A DNA stretch of 24,107 nucleotides from a virus. Location: positions 1-24,107 of the IMG/VR virus record IMGVR_UViG_3300000477_000006; one strand, 5' to 3'. The position numbers were made by a program, and so were the translations under genes. The first letter of the stretch is position 1. Every line of letters starts with the position of its first letter. Below, one piece after another: positions 6,830 through 20,791 of the stretch. The notes beneath the pieces were generated by a model. It had not been told where the DNA came from and made no database searches. It was given only the letters and a program-made list of their open reading frames with translations.

Positions 6830-7080
6830 GTTGAGAACGGACTACGGTAACCCTCCTTTTGTTCATCCGAGAGAATACCAAACGGTAAATCAACGATAAA
6901 TGAAACACGACCGTAAAGAATATCCAATCCAACAACCGTTATCCCTGTAAATCCGCTTATAAGTAAAGGTCTAATGATGTTATACCATCTATATGTTACC
7001 CCGGTATGTTGTATCTTTGTTCTTACTTGAAATAATACAGAAAACCTTAGTATTGATGCTTCAAGTTTTAGAATGTTCAT
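6826..7080 (-). CDS. Hypothetical protein, 84 residues
   Basis: Starts at ATG 7080 behind GAGAAGGTGG and overlaps the end of the aldo/keto reductase gene by 20 bases, so it is translationally coupled to it. The N-terminus is basic. Residues about 38-72 are hydrophobic with interspersed Gly (PLLISGFTGITVVGLDILYG), possibly one membrane segment, although the charged tail (SDEQKEGYR) is soluble. No family is recognised. It is the last gene before the type A promoter region. Confidence 0.65.
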   Translation of the reverse strand: MNILKLEASILRFSVLFQVRTKIQHTGVTYRWYNIIRPLLISGFTGITVVGLDILYGRVSFIVDLPFGILSDEQKEGYRSPFST

Positions 7081-8083
7081 ATTTACCCACCTTCTCTAAA
7101 ATCCGCCGGGTTTCTTGAGGAACCAATTCCGTTAATTTTAGATTATAAGGACAGGCTTCTTCACATAAACCACATTGTTTACACTCTAACCCGGCTTTTA
7201 TTTGTTTTAGTTTGTTATCACTTAAAAATCCTTCATCCCTTTTCATCATCAACTCCCGCCATTGAATAATGATAGAAGGATTAATCCCTTCTGGACAAAC
7301 ACAACAATATTCACACCTACGACAAAACCGATGCCCTAACCGTGATTTTTCTTCCCATAATTCAGGGAAATTTCTTGGAAATTTCAAAGATTTTTCAAAG
7401 AGATTCGTATTAATATCAACTTCCTCTATTGTTTTCATACCCGGTATAATAATAGCGTCTTTTAAAGTTCTACCAATCCATTGTAAGGATTTTTCAGGGT
7501 ATCTTATCATCCCTCCGCCGATTGGTTTCATAATAACCATGCCAATATTCTTTTTTCTGCACTTATCAATAAGCCCTGTATTTAATGCTTCTGATTCAAT
7601 GAAGTTAAAGGGAAACATAACCACATCAACCATACCTTGTTTAACAATTTCTTCCAGAATTTCCAGTCGATGAACCGAAACCCCAACCTTCTTCACCGTT
7701 TTTTCTAAAGTAAGTGCTTCCAAATTATCGTAGAACATCATATTTAAGTTTCTAACATCGTGCAACATAAAAATATCTATATAATCTGTTTTTAGATTAT
7801 ATAGACTTTCTTCTAAATCGTCCATTAATGGTTTTAATCTCTTTACCTTAGTTTTAGAACAGATAATTATATTTTCTCTAAAACCATATAAACCCCGCCC
7901 AATAATCGCTTCACTATGACCGTAAGACCGAGCCGTGTCAAAAAAATTCACCCCTTTTTCATAGGCGTGATAAACCAATCTCATACCACCCTCCAAAGGC
8001 GTGTTCTTTAATGCCAATCCGCCAAACCCGATCTGACTTATCTCTTTATTTAGCCAGTTAATCTCTACTTTCTTCATTTCCAT
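7061..8083 (-). CDS. Aldo/keto reductase with C-terminal Fe-S cysteines
   Basis: About 340 residues from ATG 8083 (a second ATG two codons on is also possible). The AKR barrel shows its catalytic tetrad: Asp49 and Tyr54 in FFDTARSYGHSE, Lys77 in CSKTK and His108 in FMLHDV. After the barrel come CRRCEYCCVCPEGI and CKQCGLCEEACPY, ferredoxin-like motifs able to hold iron-sulfur clusters, as in AKRs of anaerobes. Such enzymes reduce carbonyls with NAD(P)H; the substrate is unknown. It overlaps the upstream gene by 26 bases. A metabolic oxidoreductase is unusual in a phage. It carries five GGCGG copies like its neighbours, so it is probably an old acquisition. It could be an auxiliary metabolic gene or serve base modification. 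Confidence 0.85.
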   Translation of the reverse strand: MEMKKVEINWLNKEISQIGFGGLALKNTPLEGGMRLVYHAYEKGVNFFDTARSYGHSEAIIGRGLYGFRENIIICSKTKVKRLKPLMDDLEESLYNLKTDYIDIFMLHDVRNLNMMFYDNLEALTLEKTVKKVGVSVHRLEILEEIVKQGMVDVVMFPFNFIESEALNTGLIDKCRKKNIGMVIMKPIGGGMIRYPEKSLQWIGRTLKDAIIIPGMKTIEEVDINTNLFEKSLKFPRNFPELWEEKSRLGHRFCRRCEYCCVCPEGINPSIIIQWRELMMKRDEGFLSDNKLKQIKAGLECKQCGLCEEACPYNLKLTELVPQETRRILEKVGKYEHSKT

Positions 8084-8675
8084 CAGATTCTTTTTTCCCT
8101 CCCCCGCCGAAAATCTCTGATAAAATACCACCACTACCTTGAACAGCGTTTTTCCCTTTAATACTGATGTTAATAGAATCGTCCTCTTGAAGTATCTCTT
8201 TAAAGTTTTTCATCATTTCCATTAACCTTTTAATTTCCTCTGATAAATTCCTATCTACATAACCGCCTTCCGTCATTTCAATAAACCGCCCAAAAATTAC
8301 CCGTTCACCTTGCATCTCTATCAATGTCCGTAATAGTTCAAATATATCATGTGGTTGGTCAATAGATACCGAAGTCCTAAAACGACAAGTAGCCCCTTCT
8401 TCAAAATGGTTGCACCTATCCTGTAAATAACAATTATCACATACTCTTGGAATATCAAAAGTATCAGCAACAATAGTCTGCTTACTTGGAACCGCCGGAA
8501 GTCTGTCTTTGTATTCCTTTTGCTCTCCTTGTTTTTGTTTCTTTTCCTGATCATAATCATATATCTCCTGCAACTCGTCTGTTACCTCCCCTCCATCTTC
8601 TGCTATTAACTCGTTATATTCATTTTCCTCCGGCCCACGAACTTGTTCCCTTGCCTTAGATTTCTTTTTACTCAC
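8058..8675 (-). CDS. Cys-cluster protein, possible phage structural or DNA factor
   Basis: A 205-residue protein with a GTG start at 8675, supported by AAGGTGG and a four-base GTGA overlap with the upstream stop. The first 80 residues are a charged Glu/Gln/Lys segment. Residues about 78-98 carry CDNCYLQDRCNHFEEGATC, a four-Cys cluster. This is followed by a helical region (LIEMQGERVIFGRFIEMTEGGYVD) and a Gly/Ser-rich tail. The Cys spacing suggests a zinc or iron-sulfur site. I recall similar layouts in uncharacterised Firmicute phage proteins but cannot name a function. Confidence 0.75.
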   Translation of the reverse strand: MSKKKSKAREQVRGPEENEYNELIAEDGGEVTDELQEIYDYDQEKKQKQGEQKEYKDRLPAVPSKQTIVADTFDIPRVCDNCYLQDRCNHFEEGATCRFRTSVSIDQPHDIFELLRTLIEMQGERVIFGRFIEMTEGGYVDRNLSEEIKRLMEMMKNFKEILQEDDSINISIKGKNAVQGSGGILSEIFGGGGKKESDGNEESRD

Positions 8676-9238
8676 TTCATCACCACCTTATAACCATTAC
8701 TATAATGTTTCTGCCTTACTTCTCTTTTTAAACAACCGTAATCTATTAGTTTAATTCCTTCTTCGTCATATCCCCAATTCCGCCAATTCGTTAGAATTTC
8801 TTTCAACTCTAACTCAAATATATTACTCAATTCCCGAATATCTTTCTCTAATTGATCGTAGTTTTTAAGGTTATTCTTATGACAAAAGGCTTCTAACTTA
8901 TTTCTTTTACCGTAATTTCTAAAATAATCCGCCTCTTTTGAGTTAAATGTTTTCATTTTCTTCTGAAAGATAATAGGTATATCTTCAACGTAAAAGTAAT
9001 AAGGAATATCACATAATAAATATTTTAATCTCGCCGGACAGTTTAGAAAAACCTCTAATTCAACTATATTTTGCATTACCCTTGAGCGTTCTTTTTGCGG
9101 AGTATCAGAAAAAGAAGGATATTTTGACGTTTCCTTAAAGTTTTTAGGAATCTTAATTACCTGATCCCCATAATCATAAACATACCTACCCGCCCCATTA
9201 CTGATAATAGGTAATTCTTTTATGTCTTTAAGTAACAT
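8672..9238 (-). CDS. Degenerate protein-kinase-like protein
   Basis: A 188-residue protein starting at ATG 9238, overlapping dpdA by 11 bases. It reads as a small kinase fold: a glycine-loop and first-lysine region (SNGAGRYVYDYGDQVIKI), a Glu-containing helix (ELEVF), and near the C-terminus GYDEEGIKLIDYGCLKR, where IDYG fits the DFG position. The catalytic-loop position reads LTNWRNWGY, where active phage kinases of this type have an Asp-Leu-His-like motif, so the catalytic Asp seems absent. It may be a pseudokinase that binds a nucleotide or a partner. Position beside DpdA and a second kinase-like gene hints at a shared role. The assignment is by motif order only. Confidence 0.55.
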   Translation of the reverse strand: MLLKDIKELPIISNGAGRYVYDYGDQVIKIPKNFKETSKYPSFSDTPQKERSRVMQNIVELEVFLNCPARLKYLLCDIPYYFYVEDIPIIFQKKMKTFNSKEADYFRNYGKRNKLEAFCHKNNLKNYDQLEKDIRELSNIFELELKEILTNWRNWGYDEEGIKLIDYGCLKREVRQKHYSNGYKVVMK

Positions 9239-10115
9239 TTTCTTTCCGCCAAAATTGTTCTTGTTTTTCTTTAAACTGCCCCAACTTGCCTTGTTCTTCT
9301 AAATACTCTTGAAATTTAAGCCATTGTATTAAACTAAAAGAGTTTGTTTCGTAAGCATGGTCGTCCATAAACCGATCCCAATTCAACCCATACCCCTTAA
9401 CTTCTCTTTTAAACCTTGCCCTGACCCACTTATTAAATTTATCGTAAGCCCTTAAATGCCTTCCATCAAACCAAAACGTCATTCCGTGCTTTCCTACATG
9501 AAGCCATGAAGCACTATCTACACTTGCCAATCCGAAATTTCTCATTATATCAACCGCCGTTAAAGCAAAGCCGTGAATAGGAGTTCCGTTTTTCTTAGCC
9601 GGTGCTAACCTTTGAGCAATATACTTCCTATTTTCCGCCACCGAATACCCTTTTAGACCCGCATAAGCAACGTAAGGGTATTTTTCACAAAGATAATCCA
9701 CGTATCTATTAGGATCAGCCCTGTGAACAACAGGAAGTAAAGTAACATTTGCCTTTATTTTATCTCTTAACTGTTCCCGATACCTTGTTTTTTGTTGCCA
9801 AGAACCTACGTCAAGTTCAGTAACCAAAGTAAAATGTTCTCCGTACTCATTAATAAACTGAACATAATCCTCCAAGTAATCATCTATTTGATCAGAGGCA
9901 TAGCGACTACTCGGATTAACTCCGTTCTTTTCTAACTGTAACCTTAATGTAAATGCTCCCGAATCTAAGAATACATCATCAAATTTATCTAAAATAGTTT
10001 CTACTGTCCTTCCGCCTTTTTCTCTTAGGTAGTAGTAAGATATTAGAACATATTTAGCCCCGTGTTCAGCTAATAGTTTGTGCATACTTTCTCCACCGGC
10101 CAGATAGATTTTCAC
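9228..10115 (-). CDS. dpdA: DpdA-like 7-deazaguanine DNA transglycosylase
   Basis: A 295-residue protein with GTG start at 10115 after AGGAGG. It has the tRNA-guanine-transglycosylase-like pattern of phage DpdA proteins: FLDSGAF (Asp51), LLPVVHRAD (126-133), YAGLKG (151-156), HGFALT (181-186) and VDSASW (199-204), whose Asp200 is a candidate nucleophile. DpdA enzymes exchange guanine in DNA for preQ0 or a derivative, protecting phage DNA from restriction. The genes for preQ0 synthesis (folE, queD, queE, queC) are all within 5 kb upstream in the same operon, which strongly supports a DNA role rather than a tRNA role. Which guanines are targeted is unknown. Confidence 0.88.
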   Translation of the reverse strand: MKIYLAGGESMHKLLAEHGAKYVLISYYYLREKGGRTVETILDKFDDVFLDSGAFTLRLQLEKNGVNPSSRYASDQIDDYLEDYVQFINEYGEHFTLVTELDVGSWQQKTRYREQLRDKIKANVTLLPVVHRADPNRYVDYLCEKYPYVAYAGLKGYSVAENRKYIAQRLAPAKKNGTPIHGFALTAVDIMRNFGLASVDSASWLHVGKHGMTFWFDGRHLRAYDKFNKWVRARFKREVKGYGLNWDRFMDDHAYETNSFSLIQWLKFQEYLEEQGKLGQFKEKQEQFWRKENVT

Positions 10116-10126
10116 GGTCTTACCTC

Positions 10127-10822
10127 CTATTCAATACCCTTTCTTTCAAGTGCCGATATTATTTCCTCCGCCCTTTGTTCCTTATATTCACCGCTTCGAG
10201 CCGCCGCAAGATACCTTCGAGCCAGTTCAGTATCCCAAGGATTAATATAATATTCCTCCTGTAAATCGTTTAACTCGAAAGCAACCCATCTCCTAAAACA
10301 TGCCGAACAATAACCACATTGATTTCCATTATTTCCGCCGATATTATAACAACTCGTAGTAAGTAGTAAGTTTTCAGTAGATAAACCTTGTTCTCTATAC
10401 CATTTTACCATATCCACTTTACTCATGTTAAGAAAAGGTGTTTCAATAGTAATTTCCTTTTCCAACATATCACTTAATAATTTTTGAGTTTTTGTAAGAA
10501 AGTTAATACTCCTATCCGGCGAATGTGTTTCCCCTTTTTGCACGATTAAATATATCCATTCCCCACCATGTAAAGCGGCAATATGACAAAGGAAAGAATT
10601 TCTCATAGGTATATTTCCATCGGATTCCTCTTTATCCCCTAAAACTAACCTCCTATCATATTTTACCTTTATATTTAACTTTGTTTGTAATAACTTAATC
10701 CGTTCTTTTTCCACTCCGGCGTATTTGTGTTTTAAATCAATATATAAGCAATCTGGTCGTGATAGGTAATGCCAACCAATAAAACTATCCAACCCACCAC
10801 TAAACAGGAGTAACGTATTCAT
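10127..10822 (-). CDS. queC: 7-cyano-7-deazaguanine (preQ0) synthase QueC
   Basis: A 231-residue protein. ATG 10822 is chosen because GGAGG lies eight bases upstream and the PP-loop begins at once. SGGLDS (8-13) is the ATP pyrophosphatase loop. Downstream are IPMRNSFL and SPDRSINF, substrate-site motifs, and Cys158, Cys169, Cys172 and Cys175 (CYN...CGYCSACFRR), the zinc site of QueC. The enzyme converts carboxy-deazaguanine, ammonia and ATP to preQ0. It is not fused to a Gat-like domain, and no QueF is in the window, so the expected end product here is preQ0. Its 5' end overlaps the kinase-like gene by 23 bases. Confidence 0.93.
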   Translation of the reverse strand: MNTLLLFSGGLDSFIGWHYLSRPDCLYIDLKHKYAGVEKERIKLLQTKLNIKVKYDRRLVLGDKEESDGNIPMRNSFLCHIAALHGGEWIYLIVQKGETHSPDRSINFLTKTQKLLSDMLEKEITIETPFLNMSKVDMVKWYREQGLSTENLLLTTSCYNIGGNNGNQCGYCSACFRRWVAFELNDLQEEYYINPWDTELARRYLAAARSGEYKEQRAEEIISALERKGIE

Positions 10823-11507
10823 AATGCTGTCCTCCGGCAACTTGTTCATGGAATAATTTTGGTAGGTATTTGATCCTTGTTTGTAGTATTTCTTTTATTC
10901 GTTGTTCTTCATTCCCGCCGAAATTAATAGTCAAATCCAGTTTGAAGTCCTGATTTTGTATTGTTGAAACCAATTCCATAGCGTAATCAATATCTACCAA
11001 CCCAATAATTAAAGGGTCAATATTTAAACCGGGTTCCTGTATGTCAAAGGGATTCTTATAAAACGTAAAATCCCTTTGTTCTGCTTCTTCTGGTAAGTGA
11101 AAACACAATGAAAACCCGTTATCAATGGCATGAGGTTTTTGAAACAAATCCACTACAACATTATCCAAAGTCCTGTCCGTATTACAAATTAGAACATCAA
11201 ATACCACCATTTTTGTTATATCCTCTTGATTAACCTGTCCTACATATTTATTTAAAGGTAATGCTTCTAAAATATAATCCTGTAACGATCCTTCCATTGT
11301 TATTTCATTCCCGCCGATATTTACTTTCGTAGCTGATATTTTAGTTGGAGGAACAACATGAAACCCTAAAATCTCTGAAATTTCATAAGCAATTACTTCA
11401 TTATAGGGAACTGTTTTAAACCCCGCCGTAAAAAAATCATACGGTTTGAGTATAAATCTTTTACCCCTACCCGTTGCTATTTCTAATGACCCTTTCCGTA
11501 TATGCAA
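10800..11507 (-). CDS. PI3/4-kinase-like (HipA/SCO1664-type) kinase
   Basis: A 235-residue protein with a TTG start at 11507 directly after the previous stop and behind AAGGAGGGG. The kinase elements are in order: FILKP (Lys21), NEVIAYEISEILGF (Glu37), a VVPPT strand, GSLQDYI, then the catalytic loop VFDVLICNTDRTLDN (Asp111, Asn116) and IDNG (Asp129) for metal binding. This NtDR...N / iDnG pattern is that of bacterial PI3/4-kinase-like and HipA-related proteins, so it looks catalytically competent. The substrate is unknown: a protein, nucleotide or modified base are all possible. It lies inside the preQ0 gene set between the HAD phosphatase and queC. Confidence 0.78.
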   Translation of the reverse strand: MHIRKGSLEIATGRGKRFILKPYDFFTAGFKTVPYNEVIAYEISEILGFHVVPPTKISATKVNIGGNEITMEGSLQDYILEALPLNKYVGQVNQEDITKMVVFDVLICNTDRTLDNVVVDLFQKPHAIDNGFSLCFHLPEEAEQRDFTFYKNPFDIQEPGLNIDPLIIGLVDIDYAMELVSTIQNQDFKLDLTINFGGNEEQRIKEILQTRIKYLPKLFHEQVAGGQHYEYVTPV

Positions 11508-11888
11508 TTATTTCCCCTCCTTACCCCAAAACGTGCCTTTAAAGTATTCGTGCATTAATATTTCCTTCTCTATCTCCAACCATACCGGCATCCGCCCAAC
11601 ATTTCGATCATCAACATAATAATTAGCGAATATTTTCCGCCCTGTAAAATCAATTCCCGGTGCATTTTCATTAACAGCGTGAAATGGAATGTTGTTTTTC
11701 TGTAAAAAATTAACCATATCTTCTTCGTATTTATCCTTTCTACAAGTCCAGATAATAATATAACACCCGTTTTGGTATAAACGGGCAATTACATTATTGG
11801 CATCTTCTACTAATTTTCCTATTTTTGGAAAAGCATTTTCAACAATAGTTCCGTCAAAATCAATAGCTACTATAGGTCTATAAGCCAT
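11508..11888 (-). CDS. HAD-superfamily phosphatase
   Basis: A 126-residue protein starting at ATG 11888 after AGGAGG. The HAD nucleophile motif DFDGT is at 10-14 (VAIDFDGTI). Motif II is in IIIWTCRKD, and the acidic motif is in YYVDDRN. It has no large cap domain, so it may act on a macromolecule or a small phosphate ester. It lies between folE and the PI3/4-kinase-like gene. A phosphatase next to a kinase within the preQ0 operon suggests they act in one pathway, such as nucleotide intermediates of preQ0 or DNA ends, but this is inference. Confidence 0.82.
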   Translation of the reverse strand: MAYRPIVAIDFDGTIVENAFPKIGKLVEDANNVIARLYQNGCYIIIWTCRKDKYEEDMVNFLQKNNIPFHAVNENAPGIDFTGRKIFANYYVDDRNVGRMPVWLEIEKEILMHEYFKGTFWGKEGK

Positions 11889-11890
11889 GT

Positions 11891-12430
11891 TTATCCTCCT
11901 GTTTGTAATAGACTAATAAACTCATTCTTATCAAACTTACCCCTAATTGCAGAAGTAATCGTCTTTGACCCCGCCTTTTTTACACCCCGGATTGTCATAC
12001 ATTGATGTTCCGCTTCTAAAATAACCATTAACCCTTTCGGCTGTATTTTATCGTATAAATAATCCGCTATTTCCATTGTCATTCTTTCCTGTATTTGTGG
12101 TTTCTTAGCGTAGAAATCTACTACCCTACCTATTTTGGAAAGACCAATATAATTCTCCGCCGGTAAATAACCAACTTGAGCATACCCGATAAAAGGTAAT
12201 AAATGGTGTTCACACATAGAATAGAAAGGTATATCCCGAACAATAACCATATCTTTATACCCTTCTTCATTGGGAAAAACTGTTACATCTGGTTCCTGTT
12301 CATTTAAACTGGAAAATACCTCTTTATAAAGTTTCTCTATCCTATGTGGTGTATCTATTAGTCCTGATCTTTGAGGATTTTCTCCGATTTCTTCTAAAAT
12401 CCGCCGAAAAAGTGCTTGTATATTCCCCAT
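11891..12430 (-). CDS. folE: GTP cyclohydrolase I, FolE
   Basis: A 179-residue protein. ATG 12430 has AAAGGTGG five bases upstream. The family hallmarks are FYSMCEHHLLPF (zinc ligands Cys73 and His76), YIGLSKIGRVVDFYAKKPQIQ and EHQCMTIRGV (zinc ligand Cys144). The enzyme converts GTP to dihydroneopterin triphosphate, the first step towards both folate and 7-deazaguanines. The length is slightly short of the bacterial enzyme, as usual for phage copies. With queD, queE and queC it completes the route from GTP to preQ0, so the phage does not depend on the host for this step. Confidence 0.95.
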   Translation of the reverse strand: MGNIQALFRRILEEIGENPQRSGLIDTPHRIEKLYKEVFSSLNEQEPDVTVFPNEEGYKDMVIVRDIPFYSMCEHHLLPFIGYAQVGYLPAENYIGLSKIGRVVDFYAKKPQIQERMTMEIADYLYDKIQPKGLMVILEAEHQCMTIRGVKKAGSKTITSAIRGKFDKNEFISLLQTGG

Positions 12431-12441
12431 AATAACCACCT

Positions 12442-12687
12442 TTAGATAGGCATTTTCAATCCCGGTAGTGTAGTATCAGCTTCCGATTTTCCTTCCTTCA
12501 ATGCTGTCTTTAATACATCAAGCCTTACCTCAACTGCTTCAAGTTCATCTTCAATGGTTTCTTTTTTGTGTTCCAGATTTTGAACCTGCTCTTTAATCTG
12601 CTGTTCCGTTAGTTCATCTGATAGTTCCCTTACAACTGTGTACTTTCCATTTTTGTCATTTTTTACTATCTTTGTAAAATCCTTCAT
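12442..12687 (-). CDS. Small coiled-coil protein
   Basis: An 81-residue protein starting at ATG 12687 after AGGAGGG. Residues about 25-66 are a continuous charged heptad-like helix (LTEQQIKEQVQNLEHKKETI and onward), likely a dimeric coiled coil. A short tail ends GLKMPI. It sits between queE and folE with 11-12 base gaps. No enzymatic motif is visible; it may be a small scaffold or anti-host peptide. Confidence 0.7.
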   Translation of the reverse strand: MKDFTKIVKNDKNGKYTVVRELSDELTEQQIKEQVQNLEHKKETIEDELEAVEVRLDVLKTALKEGKSEADTTLPGLKMPI

Positions 12688-12699
12688 TATTTTACCCTC

Positions 12700-13380
12700 C
12701 TATCGTAAATCAAAAAATTTGTGCATCTGTGGAATAAACCGAACATTACTCGCTATCTCTGGTATATAATTTCTTGTTAAATCTAAAAAATTTTTAAAGA
12801 TTTCTTTATTGCCCCACTCTGGTTGTAATGTCCATTGAACTAATGGTAAGTAATTACCTTGTTTCTTTTCCAGTAAATTATAGTAAGATTTTAACTCAAT
12901 AAAATCCTTAGTATCAGCTATTACAAATTTTAACTCTACCTGTGTTGTTTTAGAACGGCTAACCCATTTTGATAGATCAACCGCTTTACCATTACCCGAA
13001 GAAGAAAGTTTCGGACTAATTGTAACATGATTGACTAAATGTAAAAGATTAATTTCCGGCACTAATGTTCCATTTGTTTCAATTTGAACAAACCTCCGTC
13101 TAATAGATCGTAACAAAAATAATAAATTATAAAGTTTATCATAATCTTGAAAGAATGGTTCCCCACCTGTTAAAACAACCATGTTTGCATAACCATTAGC
13201 TATTTTACTTGCTATAGATAGAGGTTCTAATACTTCATAATTACCTTCCTCTAAAACCGCCGATTTTGTATCGCACCATGAACAGTTTAAATTACACCCA
13301 AAAAACCTTACAAAATGGGCGGGAGTGCCAATTAATCTTCCTTCCCCTTGTATGCTGGTAAAAATTTCATTAACTTTCAT
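12700..13380 (-). CDS. queE: 7-carboxy-7-deazaguanine synthase QueE
   Basis: A 226-residue protein starting at ATG 13380 behind AAAGGGG. It begins with EIFTSIQGEG (5-14), the QueE signature, followed by the radical-SAM motif CX3CX2C at Cys29, Cys33 and Cys36 (GCNLNCSWCDT) and TGGEP at 71-75. The enzyme uses S-adenosylmethionine and a 4Fe-4S cluster to rearrange carboxy-tetrahydropterin into carboxy-deazaguanine, between QueD and QueC. The oxygen-sensitive cluster fits an anaerobic host. Confidence 0.94.
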   Translation of the reverse strand: MKVNEIFTSIQGEGRLIGTPAHFVRFFGCNLNCSWCDTKSAVLEEGNYEVLEPLSIASKIANGYANMVVLTGGEPFFQDYDKLYNLLFLLRSIRRRFVQIETNGTLVPEINLLHLVNHVTISPKLSSSGNGKAVDLSKWVSRSKTTQVELKFVIADTKDFIELKSYYNLLEKKQGNYLPLVQWTLQPEWGNKEIFKNFLDLTRNYIPEIASNVRFIPQMHKFFDLR

Positions 13381-13384
13381 GTGC

Positions 13385-13942
13385 TTACCCCTTTACCGTT
13401 TTTACCGGCATTACGAATCCCGCTGTGCTGTGAGCCATACTCCTTACATTTTCCACGCCTTCATCATACTTTACCCGAATATCAAAGTGAAAATCATCCA
13501 AATCTGTTTCGCTAATATGGTTTCTCTGTTCTACCGTAAGGTTATTATCATAAGGGCGGGAGTTTTGATAACGATTAACCCGTAAAGTAACAACAGTATA
13601 GTTACTATCCAACCGGGTTTTAAAATAACCCACTTCTGTTTTATACCGTGTATCAGGGCATAAGATTATATCTTCATCCCCCGTTAGTTTTTCTTCTAAC
13701 TTTTTACACCAATAATAGGGATCATATTCTCTCATGCCCTGACCGTGTTTTTGTAGTAAACTACGTCCTTGTTCATCTTTTTTACCATCCCACCCTAACT
13801 TCTCCGCCGCTTCTTCTTTTACTGCTTTAGCAAAATGATAAATACCGACTTTATACCCCTTTTCCTCTAACGCCTCTTTTAGAAAAACGGCAAAAGTATC
13901 TTTACCATGTTCCGCTTTTCCAGATATTAACACAATAACCAT
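13385..13942 (-). CDS. Deoxynucleoside monophosphate kinase-like protein
   Basis: A 185-residue protein starting at ATG 13942 with GAGAGG upstream. A P-loop, SGKAEHGKDT (7-16), opens the sequence, and the pattern GKxxxGKDT followed by YHFAKAVKEEAAEKLGWDG and ILCPDTRY resembles phage dNMP kinases of the T4 gp1 type and related adenylate-kinase-fold proteins. The likely reaction is ATP-dependent phosphorylation of dNMPs to dNDPs for replication. Position between queD and queE also allows a role in handling modified nucleotides, but base exchange by DpdA does not require that. Confidence 0.75.
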   Translation of the reverse strand: MVIVLISGKAEHGKDTFAVFLKEALEEKGYKVGIYHFAKAVKEEAAEKLGWDGKKDEQGRSLLQKHGQGMREYDPYYWCKKLEEKLTGDEDIILCPDTRYKTEVGYFKTRLDSNYTVVTLRVNRYQNSRPYDNNLTVEQRNHISETDLDDFHFDIRVKYDEGVENVRSMAHSTAGFVMPVKTVKG

Positions 13943-13944
13943 AG

Positions 13945-14295
13945 TTAAACCTCTCTAAAAGTAGCACAAGAAGTAGGTGTTTCCCAAACCTTAATCTCTA
14001 CAACTTTTGGTGTATGGGATAATTTATCACAGTATTCCTGTATTTCATAAAAGAATAGTTTTGATAAATACTCCGCCGTTGTAGGATTAATTATTTCATT
14101 AAGATAACAATGGTCGTATTTAGAAAGTAAACTCTTTAAATCCCCAAAATCAACCAACATTCCGTGTTTATCCAATTTTTTTCCAGCGATTGTAACGATA
14201 ACACGATACCTATGTCCATGAATGAAACCGCAACTTTCGTGTCCTTCTATCTTGTGTGCCGCATCTAAGTGTATCTCTTTTTCTATAATATACAT
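13945..14295 (-). CDS. queD: 6-carboxy-tetrahydropterin synthase QueD
   Basis: A 116-residue protein starting at ATG 14295 after AGGAGG. LDAAHK (His14) and CGFIHGHRY (Cys22, His26, His28) give the zinc ligands and the reactive cysteine. DHCYLNE and NPTTAEYLS follow, with VWETPTSCATF at the end, all typical of the QueD/PTPS fold. It turns dihydroneopterin triphosphate from FolE into carboxy-tetrahydropterin for QueE. It is the right-most preQ0 gene, immediately downstream of spoVS. Confidence 0.94.
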   Translation of the reverse strand: MYIIEKEIHLDAAHKIEGHESCGFIHGHRYRVIVTIAGKKLDKHGMLVDFGDLKSLLSKYDHCYLNEIINPTTAEYLSKLFFYEIQEYCDKLSHTPKVVEIKVWETPTSCATFREV

Positions 14296-14306: not shown

Positions 14307-14573
14307 CTAATTCGTAAGGATTATAAACTTCATCGCCGTTTTCTGTAGTCCATCAATGTCAATATCAGCAAAACCGATACGTGTGGAAATAGCCAAACCC
14401 TGTGGTGCGGCGTAACCTGCCCCGATAGCAATTCCCTTCGTAGCTTGGTTGACTGCGCCAGCACCCACAGCCAGGATTTCCACATTTTTATTCTCCTGTA
14501 AATTTCTTACAATAGCCCCTCCAACACTTGCTGGATTGCTTGAGGCCGCCACTTTCAATGTAACCTTATCCAT
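14307..14573 (-). CDS. spoVS: SpoVS-family protein
   Basis: An 88-residue protein starting at ATG 14573 after AGGAGG, overlapping the RuvC-like gene by 8 bases. It matches the SpoVS/Alba-like layout end to end: LKVAASSNPASVGGAIVRNL, then ILAVGAGAVNQATKGIAIG, then FADIDIDGLQKTAMKFIIL. SpoVS binds DNA as a small dimer and in Bacillus affects sporulation and septation genes. In a phage it could bind phage DNA, sit at recombination intermediates (its neighbour is RuvC-like) or interfere with host sporulation. The family is clear; the role is inference. Confidence 0.9.
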   Translation of the reverse strand: MDKVTLKVAASSNPASVGGAIVRNLQENKNVEILAVGAGAVNQATKGIAIGAGYAAPQGLAISTRIGFADIDIDGLQKTAMKFIILTN

Positions 14574-17959: not shown

Positions 17960-18433
17960 TTAGTAATACTGGATAAAATCACAATCCTTTTCTCTCCGCC
18001 AAATTTTTTGATTAGAGCTTGATAACCTTCCTTTTTTTCCTAAAGATTGATCATACCTCCCTGTTTTCACATAATCAACTAAAAAAAGAATATACTCTGG
18101 TATCTCCTCCAATTCATAAGAAGTATATAACCATAACCATTTCGTAGGAAAGTGAAGTTTTATTTGCTCTAAAAGGGTCTTTATATTCTTTTGATTTAAC
18201 GGTTCCCCGCCCAAAATTGCTATGCTGTCAGCATCTTTGTATTTATGAGTAAGAAGTAATATTATATCCTCAATAAATAATTCTTCCCCAAATTTAAAAT
18301 CCCACATATAAGGGTTATAACAACCCTCACACTTTGGATTTCTGGCACAACCTGATAAGAATAAATCAACCCCTACCCCCTCTGTTGAATTAAAAGAAGG
18401 GAATTGCCAACCCCCTACTTGGATTGTCTGCAA
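17960..18433 (-). CDS. nrdG: Anaerobic ribonucleotide reductase activase NrdG
   Basis: A 157-residue protein with a TTG start at 18433, supported by AAGGAG nine bases upstream and a 19-base overlap with nrdD. It is a short radical-SAM protein: GVDLFLSGCARNPKCEGCYN carries the cluster cysteines and ILGGEP follows. The cysteines are spaced CX5CX2C (Cys29, Cys35, Cys38), longer than the usual CX3CX2C. It should cleave S-adenosylmethionine to install the glycyl radical on NrdD, its upstream neighbour. Confidence 0.9.
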   Translation of the reverse strand: MQTIQVGGWQFPSFNSTEGVGVDLFLSGCARNPKCEGCYNPYMWDFKFGEELFIEDIILLLTHKYKDADSIAILGGEPLNQKNIKTLLEQIKLHFPTKWLWLYTSYELEEIPEYILFLVDYVKTGRYDQSLGKKGRLSSSNQKIWRREKDCDFIQYY

Positions 18434-20322
18434 ACAACTCCACTCCTTTCTTCCTCGGTAATTTCTTCGTTACCATACCATTTACGAAGCGGAAATTCAT
18501 ATTCTCTCCGTGCTTTTGCCCAATCCGTTGTATCAGTAAAAAACCCTACAACCCTTGTAGTATAATAACTAATCTCATCATTACACTCCGGGCAAAACTC
18601 ATATACCCCAACTTCCGTATGATCATTAACACAGGTACTAAATCCTTTGTTTAATGCAAAATGAGGAATACCATAATCCTCTACAATCCGCCGAAGTAAT
18701 TCCCTATTCGCCCCCGGCGTTAAATCATCGTTAATATTAAGGTGAAGGATTGCCCCACCAGAAACAATATTCATCAATTTACTGCTAACCTGTAACCGAT
18801 CAAAGAAATCAAAGTGATCAGTGTAAAGAGGAACCATCTGGTTAGACAATAATTTCCTTTCCGTACCGAAAACAAAGGCATCTTTCTTTGCAAGTTTTGG
18901 ACTTGCATTTTCCGCCGGGATTTCCTCAACATTGAAAGCGAAACCTTTGTTTTGTTGCCCTGCTTCTTTAGCAAAATTTTCCATAAATGTTAAAACATCA
19001 GAAGCATAATTTGTAAATTCCTTGTCTATTGATAATACCTCATAAGAATCATACAATCCAGTAAAGCCGAATGTACTGAAAAACATATTAAGATTAACCC
19101 AACCTATTCTAAAGAATTTGAGAATACCCTCATCAACCCGCCGTTTTAGAATATCCTCTTTATGGACAACAAGTAATTTCTTTGCTTGTTCCATAAAATT
19201 CTCTAAAACCTGAAAGAGATTTTGTCCTGTTTTTTTACTTACCAAAGCAACCCGATGTAAATTAATAGCAACTACACGGTGAGAACCTATACTCAATCCG
19301 CCGTTTCCGAAAGTATCTGTCCTTATTTGATTTTTCAACTCCGATAAATCCGAAGTTAATCTACAACACGTGGCTATTTTTTCGCCAATATGCCAGTTAA
19401 ATACACATTTTTCCCTATTCAAATCCGCCATAAAATTAAAGAAACTTCTGTCAATAATTTTCCCATTATAATTCGTCTTAATATTAACCGTAGTAATCGG
19501 GAAACGATAAGGTTTATTTGTTTTTGGTGAACCTTTTACGAAAAACTTGGCGTATATTTCCTGTATTCGCATGATCTCATCAATATTATCAATAACCTTT
19601 GACCCATCTGGATAAATAGAGTTTTTAAAAGTATCATATAAAGAACCACGACAAAATAGTGATAGATTCGTAAAAGGTGCATCTCCTCCAACCCTAAAAC
19701 TATTATGGAAAATATGGACGGTCTGCTGTAATTCGTCCTCTATTTCCTTATCCGTTATACTCTTATCATCCCTTGTATAATACGCCATACTTACAAGAGC
19801 ATTAGCCAACCCTATAGCCCCGGCGTTTTCTTGAGAATAATCCATCGTAACTTCCCTTAATTGCCCCATAAAAGACTGTAATTTTTTAGGAGCAACAGAA
19901 GGTAGCCAACCGTAAGGTCTGCCTTCGTGCATTAAAAAAGATGTATCGGGTGAATAGCAATAAGGAACATCAATTTTTGAAGCATCGTGGAAATATAAAC
20001 CACCGCTTACAATATTTGTAATGATATTGTTTGCTTCTTGTAAGCCCCATCTTTTATTAATGTATTTCCACAAAAGATAATAACAACGAAGTTTTAAAAT
20101 AGGTTTCGATACCTCTGAATAAAAATTAACAGGCGATTTACCTGTTATATTTGCATTAGGATCAATACTCTGATCCGCCAGAACATCATTCTTATAATAC
20201 TCCTTTGCCAACGTAAATGGATCAATTTCCTGCAATCCTTCCAATTCCATTAGTTCTTCAGGAAAACTATTCATTAACTCCTGAAATTCTGGTTCTACAT
20301 TTTTTCCGATTATTCCTAACAT
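18415..20322 (-). CDS. nrdD: Anaerobic (class III) ribonucleotide reductase NrdD
   Basis: A 635-residue protein. I start it at ATG 20322, after AGGAGGG and ten bases past the dUTPase stop. It lacks the usual N-terminal ATP-cone and opens close to the catalytic barrel. SGGLYFHDASKIDVPYCYS and the GRPYG...DYSQENAGAIGLA stretch resemble the clostridial/Bdellovibrio-type reductases. The C-terminus has a zinc-site candidate (CVNDHTE, CPEC) and RVVGFF, the glycyl-radical site at about Gly593. It reduces ribonucleotides to deoxyribonucleotides without oxygen, so the host grows anaerobically at least at times. Loss of the ATP-cone would remove overall dATP feedback, which would suit a phage. Confidence 0.92.
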   Translation of the reverse strand: MLGIIGKNVEPEFQELMNSFPEELMELEGLQEIDPFTLAKEYYKNDVLADQSIDPNANITGKSPVNFYSEVSKPILKLRCYYLLWKYINKRWGLQEANNIITNIVSGGLYFHDASKIDVPYCYSPDTSFLMHEGRPYGWLPSVAPKKLQSFMGQLREVTMDYSQENAGAIGLANALVSMAYYTRDDKSITDKEIEDELQQTVHIFHNSFRVGGDAPFTNLSLFCRGSLYDTFKNSIYPDGSKVIDNIDEIMRIQEIYAKFFVKGSPKTNKPYRFPITTVNIKTNYNGKIIDRSFFNFMADLNREKCVFNWHIGEKIATCCRLTSDLSELKNQIRTDTFGNGGLSIGSHRVVAINLHRVALVSKKTGQNLFQVLENFMEQAKKLLVVHKEDILKRRVDEGILKFFRIGWVNLNMFFSTFGFTGLYDSYEVLSIDKEFTNYASDVLTFMENFAKEAGQQNKGFAFNVEEIPAENASPKLAKKDAFVFGTERKLLSNQMVPLYTDHFDFFDRLQVSSKLMNIVSGGAILHLNINDDLTPGANRELLRRIVEDYGIPHFALNKGFSTCVNDHTEVGVYEFCPECNDEISYYTTRVVGFFTDTTDWAKARREYEFPLRKWYGNEEITEEERSGVVCRQSK

Positions 20323-20332
20323 ATTTACCCTC

Positions 20333-20791
20333 CTAATTAGTACTTCCCATTCCGCCAGTTCTTTCTCTTTCTGCAACATCATTATCTGCCATTTTATATT
20401 CCATAAATATACCTTGACCAATCTTATCTCCTTTTTTAATCTTCACAGGAAAGGGAGAAATGTTAATAAATTGAAACATAATATGCCCATCATTATCCCT
20501 ATTACCATAATAATCTGCATCAACAACACCGACACCGTTAGACAACCAAAGTCCTTTTTTAATAGGATTACTTGACCTGTTATAGAGGAATAATCCTTCA
20601 CTATCCGGCATATATGCCTTAATACCTGTAGGCACTAAAACAGGTTTACCTTCCTCTTTAAAAGGAAGTATTTCTATATCTTCCGCCGACCTAAAATCAT
20701 ACCCTGCCGATAATTTTGTTGACCGTTCCGGCATACTAATATCCTTATCCTCATAACCTTTTACTACTTTAAAACCCCTAATTTTACTCAT
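20333..20791 (-). CDS. dut: dUTP diphosphatase
   Basis: A 152-residue protein starting at ATG 20791, with GGAGGA upstream. All five trimeric dUTPase motifs appear: I in SAGYDFRSAED, II in LYNRSSNPIKKG, III in NGVGVVDADYYGN, IV in KKGDKIGQGIF and V in RERTGGMGSTN. It hydrolyses dUTP to dUMP, keeping uracil out of DNA and feeding the thymidylate-synthase-like protein encoded downstream. It overlaps the nuclease gene by 8 bases. Confidence 0.95.
   Translation of the reverse strand: MSKIRGFKVVKGYEDKDISMPERSTKLSAGYDFRSAEDIEILPFKEEGKPVLVPTGIKAYMPDSEGLFLYNRSSNPIKKGLWLSNGVGVVDADYYGNRDNDGHIMFQFINISPFPVKIKKGDKIGQGIFMEYKMADNDVAERERTGGMGSTN

Follow-up and report, generated by a model that had tools for sequence, protein, structure and literature searches.

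A non-canonical QueC homologue in a phage 7-deazaguanine operon

Which modified base does a phage place in its DNA when a single operon encodes FolE, QueD, QueE, a QueC homologue and the guanine transglycosylase DpdA? The question is raised by positions 9228-14295 (minus strand) of the 24,107-nucleotide stretch analysed here, hereafter the window, which comprises the first 24,107 bases of the 32,355-bp IMG/VR virus record IMGVR_UViG_3300000477_000006. Since this record is itself a fragment, gene absences reported below apply to 32,355 bp and other genes of the phage may be missing. All five genes are intact open reading frames (ORFs) in one tight operon, in which intergenic spacings are 0-12 nt or short overlaps, and the region is very likely a phage 7-deazaguanine DNA-modification operon, a kind that is already known (Hutinet 2019). 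A first-pass annotation, made from the sequence alone, had recognised these five genes and expected 7-cyano-7-deazaguanine (preQ0) itself as the base; the gene calls bear out the gene set, with the correction that the QueC is non-canonical. The operon is a new member of the known kind found in DpdA phages, and its finishing enzyme is a variant. On balance, we favour a reading in which it makes a 7-deazaguanine for phage DNA and the QueC product is amide-level or substituted, and not preQ0.

The variant enzyme is encoded at 10127-10822 (minus strand, ~231 aa) and is classed here as a DK-type QueC-family ATP-dependent enzyme (Pfam QueC, 2.5e-17). Its likeliest start, at 10822, is preceded by a ribosome-binding site (GGAGGA) within the last codons of the upstream kinase gene, the longest ORF extending to 10849. 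Canonical QueC proteins, the preQ0 synthases of PF06508 cluster 1, carry the motifs SGGxDS, YxQxHxxE, VPxRN and YPDC and a zinc motif, and in the E. coli enzyme Y35, R99, Y131 and Y189 are essential, the Y35 and Y131 alanine mutants being dead and Y131F partly active (2026 study; PMC13329287). The window protein keeps the ATP loop (SGGLDS), the RN motif (IPMRN) and the zinc cysteines (SCY...CGYCSAC), and retains R99, D133, K165 and Y189. However, IDLKHKYAGVE replaces YxQxHxxE and HSPDRS replaces YPDC, with loss of both Tyr35 and Tyr131. Most canonical phage QueCs retain these two tyrosines, and the proteins of CAjan, Dp-1, phiSM and HVTV-1 retain both motifs, apart from a single substitution in HVTV-1 (Thr for His39). 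The window protein scores 47.2 bits against the canonical equivalog TIGR00364 (cut-off 150.3) and 43.8 bits against the QatC model (cut-off 280), in each case below the cut-off. An AlphaFold model (predicted local distance difference test score, pLDDT, 93.9) has the fold common to QueC, QatC and Cap9, matching QueC with a Z-score of 16.9 over 183 residues, QatC with 16.8 over 217 and Cap9 with 16.3 over 174; its C-terminal helices, which canonical QueC lacks, are covered by the QatC match only. Judged by these sequence features, the window 'QueC' is a non-canonical member of the family.

A divergent phage branch of the QueC family

An alignment query of viral contigs, from which the best 80 of 99 QueC relatives were kept, was combined with gut-phage loci and the window to give a set of 51 DK-type proteins, non-redundant at 70% identity; related loci compared with the window carry L-numbers. 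Every protein of this set has R99, D133, K165 and the zinc cysteines, E42 is retained in 50 of the 51, and Tyr131 is missing from every one. Cys134 is replaced by Lys in 40/51, hence the name 'DK-type'; the residue following DS is Phe or Trp in 45/51, and 37/51 have Tyr at position 39. Past the last zinc cysteine the DK-type proteins extend by a median of 62 residues; the canonical rows in the comparison have 16-40. In a maximum-likelihood tree of 97 proteins, DK-type and QatC proteins (the QatC-like rows being taken from a genome scan) split from canonical QueC, Gat-QueC and Cap9 with support of 97/99. The best tree nests QatC inside the DK-type, but a separate DK-type clade survives the approximately unbiased test (p-AU 0.45). 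A QatC family search of 60 Bacteroides-side genomes found none. In a quick tree the window protein groups with those of L016, L013, L012 and L015, L016 being among its nearest relatives (41%). The DK-type is apparently an undescribed, divergent phage branch of the QueC family; a literature search found neither the branch nor its link to a HAD phosphatase (below), though an earlier description remains possible.

The residues that are kept and lost bear on the substrate. In Cap9, the equivalent of Tyr131 stacks on the base and that of Asp133 reads its Watson-Crick edge (PMC13279940); of these two contacts the DK-type proteins retain only the Asp. The presence of this Asp in all 51 suggests that the proteins continue to bind a deazaguanine substrate.

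Another divergent type of QueC-like protein was also seen in DpdA operons (L096:8899-9639, L104:8621-9415, L105, L108), in which YGQ is kept and the zinc cysteines and PDC are absent.

A HAD phosphatase is a recurrent partner of DK-type QueC

We compared the 51 DK-type neighbourhoods with 54 non-redundant canonical phage QueC loci. DpdA or another gene of the tRNA-guanine transglycosylase (TGT) type is present in 48 of the 51, and FolE, QueD and QueE are all present in 25, within the stretch examined. Of the DK-type loci, 19/51 have a HAD phosphatase gene no more than two genes from QueC, vs 0/54 of the canonical loci (Fisher 1e-7), a comparison between related loci that are not independent, although the trait changes at least seven times on the DK-type tree. 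The BT0820-type family alone, to which the window enzyme belongs, accounts for 15/51 (6e-6). A separate HAD gene is within two genes of QueC in 17 of 21 loci, where chance placement expects 4.4 (p ~5e-5), and two QueC proteins, those of L017 and L022, carry the HAD domain as a C-terminal fusion. The HAD phosphatase is thus a recurrent, sometimes fused partner of DK-type QueC. In the window it is encoded at 11508-11888 (minus strand, 126 aa; NF046079 8.5e-28; PDB 2obb 9.5e-16), and both its DxDGT and DD motifs are kept.

The first-pass annotation had left this phosphatase unexplained together with two other interleaved genes, a kinase and a deoxynucleoside monophosphate (dNMP) kinase. For the phosphatase a partner has now emerged, whereas the other two recur in no related locus examined. 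Among these loci, the kinase is confined to the record that contains the window, with no match in phage records, and the dNMP kinase to the phage of the window itself. As single-protein queries against IMG/VR, both the kinase and the window DpdA gave no match, and the search for relatives required alignment queries. Pathway roles for the kinase, the dNMP kinase and a small coiled-coil protein were dropped on this lack of recurrence.

Further neighbours were assessed in the same loci. A second radical-SAM enzyme (rSAM2), of ~330-360 aa and weakly PqqE/NirJ-like, is present near QueC in 9/51 DK-type loci (L016, L022, L023, L024, L029, L012, L015, L080 and L088); its placement within two genes of QueC (5/51 DK-type vs 1/54 canonical) is non-significant (p 0.11). 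ParB beside QueC was rejected as a DK-type-specific trait, being found in both QueC classes, and a neighbour cluster (c0) taken for a phosphoribosyltransferase was dropped because its Pfam assignment is ParB. Four phage contigs (L065, L069, L070 and L087) have three consecutive genes in the same order, for inositol-3-phosphate synthase (TIGR03450; 1e-97 for the L065 protein), for a small HAD-like protein and for DK-type QueC.

The product of the DK-type QueC

By established chemistry, assigned here from homology, FolE, QueD and QueE would convert GTP to 7-carboxy-7-deazaguanine (CDG), and the earlier claim that a GTP-derived 7-deazaguanine feeds DpdA is well supported. The DK-type QueC would then activate the CDG carboxylate with ATP and couple it to give an amide-level product, either 7-amido-7-deazaguanine (ADG) or a substituted CDG, stopping before the nitrile preQ0. 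To judge from genetic linkage and fusion, the HAD phosphatase may act in the QueC step, or may supply or clean up a phosphorylated co-substrate. DpdA would finally put the QueC product in the place of guanine in the phage genome; its characterised relatives suggest that this most likely protects the DNA from restriction. The loss of Tyr35 and Tyr131 and the distinct branch weaken the expectation of preQ0 itself, and plain preQ0 is probably not the final base.

An amide-level or substituted product is favoured by these residue losses, by the kinship with QatC, by the phosphatase link and by a parallel in Campylobacter phage CP220, the DNA of which is reported as fully modified with the deoxynucleoside of ADG (dADG) (PMC8306585). 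The CP220 QueC-family protein, like that of the window, has no Tyr131, and carries Phe there (FPDC) where CAjan, Dp-1, HVTV-1 and Gat-QueC have Tyr; unlike the window protein, it keeps Tyr35, His39 and PDC. Gat-QueC, of the phage 9g type (2'-deoxyarchaeosine, dG+), is likewise a QueC-family step in DpdA phages, but differs from the window protein in its motifs and in its amidotransferase (Gat) domain. The window QueC has no such domain at its N-terminus; in the likely protein its SGG loop begins at residue 8. For QueF, the whole record of 32,355 bp gave no match above the cut-off, the sole sub-threshold one falling inside FolE.

Several points weigh on the other side. CP220 provides a single parallel, 28 of the 51 DK-type loci have no HAD phosphatase, and the DK-type QueC often occupies the position normally taken by QueC in a FolE/QueD/QueE/DpdA operon. 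No second canonical QueC is seen in 47 of the 50 full DK-type virus records, and for most phages holding it the DK-type is the sole candidate for the step on CDG. The DK-type may then be a diverged preQ0 synthase in which another stacking residue, the Phe/Trp after DS or Tyr39, restores synthesis. These points are accommodated by an ordinary operon for the deoxynucleoside of preQ0 (dPreQ0), in which the DK-type QueC still makes preQ0 and DpdA inserts it as in CAjan and Rosebush, a possibility that we take seriously and yet doubt. Gene set and slot match group 2 of Hutinet 2019, a dPreQ0 maker (PMC6884629), in having FolE, QueD, QueE, a QueC-family protein and DpdA, with neither QueF nor an amidotransferase, and the ATP loop, RN, Asp133, Tyr189 and zinc site are retained. 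The window differs from group 2 in that its QueC is without YxQxHxxE and YPDC and in that its operon adds the HAD phosphatase, the kinase and the dNMP kinase. Two residues essential to E. coli QueC are gone, Tyr131 from the entire branch, where CAjan, Dp-1, phiSM and HVTV-1 retain them, and none of the 54 canonical loci shares the HAD linkage. In addition, the three remaining records (L016, L029 and L080) hold a YPDN-type QueC beside the DK-type, of Gat-fused size in two (Gat-QueC co-occurs with the DK-type in L029 and L080), which shows that the preQ0 step does not always fall to the DK-type.

More tentatively, the DK-type QueC could be a CDG-conjugating enzyme that, with the HAD phosphatase and in some phages the inositol-phosphate synthase or second radical-SAM protein, builds a substituted 7-deazaguanine (CDG plus a small amine or polyol) for insertion by DpdA. 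A small bacterial genome holds DK-type QueC with FolE2, QueD, QueE, a GNAT protein, a carbamoyltransferase and a PIG-L deacetylase (L197:9986-15531), with no DpdA in that genome; this is possibly a deazaguanine natural-product (small-molecule) cluster. Together with the inositol-phosphate synthase loci, it would suit an enzyme whose coupling partner for CDG is not ammonia.

The kinship with QatC, of the qatABCD defence system, and with Cap9, of type IV cyclic oligonucleotide-based antiphage signalling systems (CBASS), could also indicate a ligase that joins CDG to a protein N-terminus, with DpdA using a different base. The window protein shares with both the QueC fold, the ATP loop, the zinc site and remodelled substrate motifs; Cap9 is its closest solved sequence (1.9e-4), and with QatC the DK-type shares its tree group and C-terminal extension. 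We consider this alternative unlikely. The window protein has ~231 residues where QatC and Cap9 have ~400, and its RN and Asp133 are kept; QatC has lost the base-reading Asp and has RxRS and HP motifs in place of RN and PDR. The DK-type proteins are linked to DpdA (or a TGT-type gene, in nearly all loci) and CDG synthesis and not to QatA, QatB, QatD or a CD-NTase, no conserved QatB-like or CD-NTase partner appearing among recurrent neighbours and no qat genes being seen near the window QueC.

If the favoured reading is correct, the phage 'QueC' proteins of this widespread branch have been wrongly annotated as preQ0 synthases, and their presence points to a different, possibly new base in the phage's DNA. 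Phage DNA modification would then also be tied to the QatC branch that bacteria use in anti-phage defence. The question is directly testable in the isolated Bacteroides phage BS162P1, which has the whole pathway, with a DK-type QueC, DpdA, QueE, FolE and QueD, and in whose deposited, partial genome no canonical QueC was found.

DpdA and the DNA target

The window DpdA (9228-10115, minus strand, 295 aa; phrog_887 1.7e-39) is a TGT-fold guanine transglycosylase, the AlphaFold model of which (pLDDT 89.4) has TGT as its top fold match (8e-7). It shares D51, S52, A54, H131, H181, S198, D200 and S201 with the proteins of CAjan, Dp-1, phiSM and JG054 and two gut-phage DpdAs, D51, H181 and D200 being invariant in the comparison, and CAjan DpdA has been shown experimentally to be essential for DNA modification (PMC6884629). 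By analogy, the window enzyme would put a 7-deazaguanine into phage DNA. A role in boosting host queuosine or modifying tRNA instead is very improbable: in spite of the TGT fold and a PHROG family named queuine tRNA-ribosyltransferase, the protein matches phage DpdA and not bacterial TGT (the Pfam TGT profile gives no match), and it has residues in common with CAjan DpdA, which is essential for DNA modification.

In two related loci DpdA is interrupted by an intein-like insert with homing-endonuclease-like motifs. In L011:5671-7869 (MT835482.1) the conserved SxDS/xTW motif is the exact site of the insert (FSSDS - SVGYDS...VVVHN - TTWLGG), and the 732-aa DpdA at L072:8683 is likewise split at SxDS/xTW.

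Other genes of the operon and its flanks

Every clear gene of the window is on the minus strand, and the operon is transcribed in the order QueD, dNMP kinase-like protein, QueE, coiled-coil protein, FolE, HAD phosphatase, kinase, QueC homologue and DpdA. Scans for promoters and terminators in the window gave chance-level results, and megablast against phage records found no detectable DNA similarity to it. QueD (6-carboxytetrahydropterin synthase; 13945-14295, 116 aa) matches Pfam PTPS (9.1e-28) and, slightly below cut-off, TIGR03367 QueD (5.6e-23). It is followed by the dNMP kinase-like protein (13385-13942, 185 aa; phrog_139 3.2e-26) and by QueE, the radical-SAM CDG synthase (12700-13380, 226 aa; QueE-like phrog_2076 1.1e-38), for which the Clostridium-type model scores best and in which the CxxxCxxC motif is kept as GCNLNCSWC. 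The coiled-coil protein (12442-12687, 81 aa) has weak coiled-coil matches only. FolE (GTP cyclohydrolase I; 11891-12439, 182 aa) is matched by Pfam (7.2e-66) and NCBIfam FolE (1.4e-69); in a related locus, FolE (L029:1651-2601) has an N-terminal stretch that by eye resembles a phosphoribosyltransferase (VIVDDIVDSGET). The kinase (10800-11507, 235 aa), the gene for which overlaps the queC start, is HipA/PI3-PI4-kinase-like on weak matches (TIGR03843 1.3e-8, PF00454 1.3e-4, HipA_2 0.005).

Directly upstream of queD is a gene for a SpoVS-like protein (14307-14573, minus strand; Pfam SpoVS 3.6e-25), which is also found near DK-type QueC in L004, L011, L047, L072 and L013. The same five loci contain relatives of the protein encoded downstream of DpdA at 8058-8675, which has a CDNCYL cysteine motif. 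Just downstream of the operon, at 7061-8134, is an aldo/keto reductase that has a 4Fe-4S region at its C-terminus, unusual in a phage. Further upstream, positions 17960-20421 encode what by eye is an anaerobic ribonucleotide reductase-like pair (NrdG-like, 17960-18433; NrdD-like, 18415-20421), which suggests an anaerobic host.

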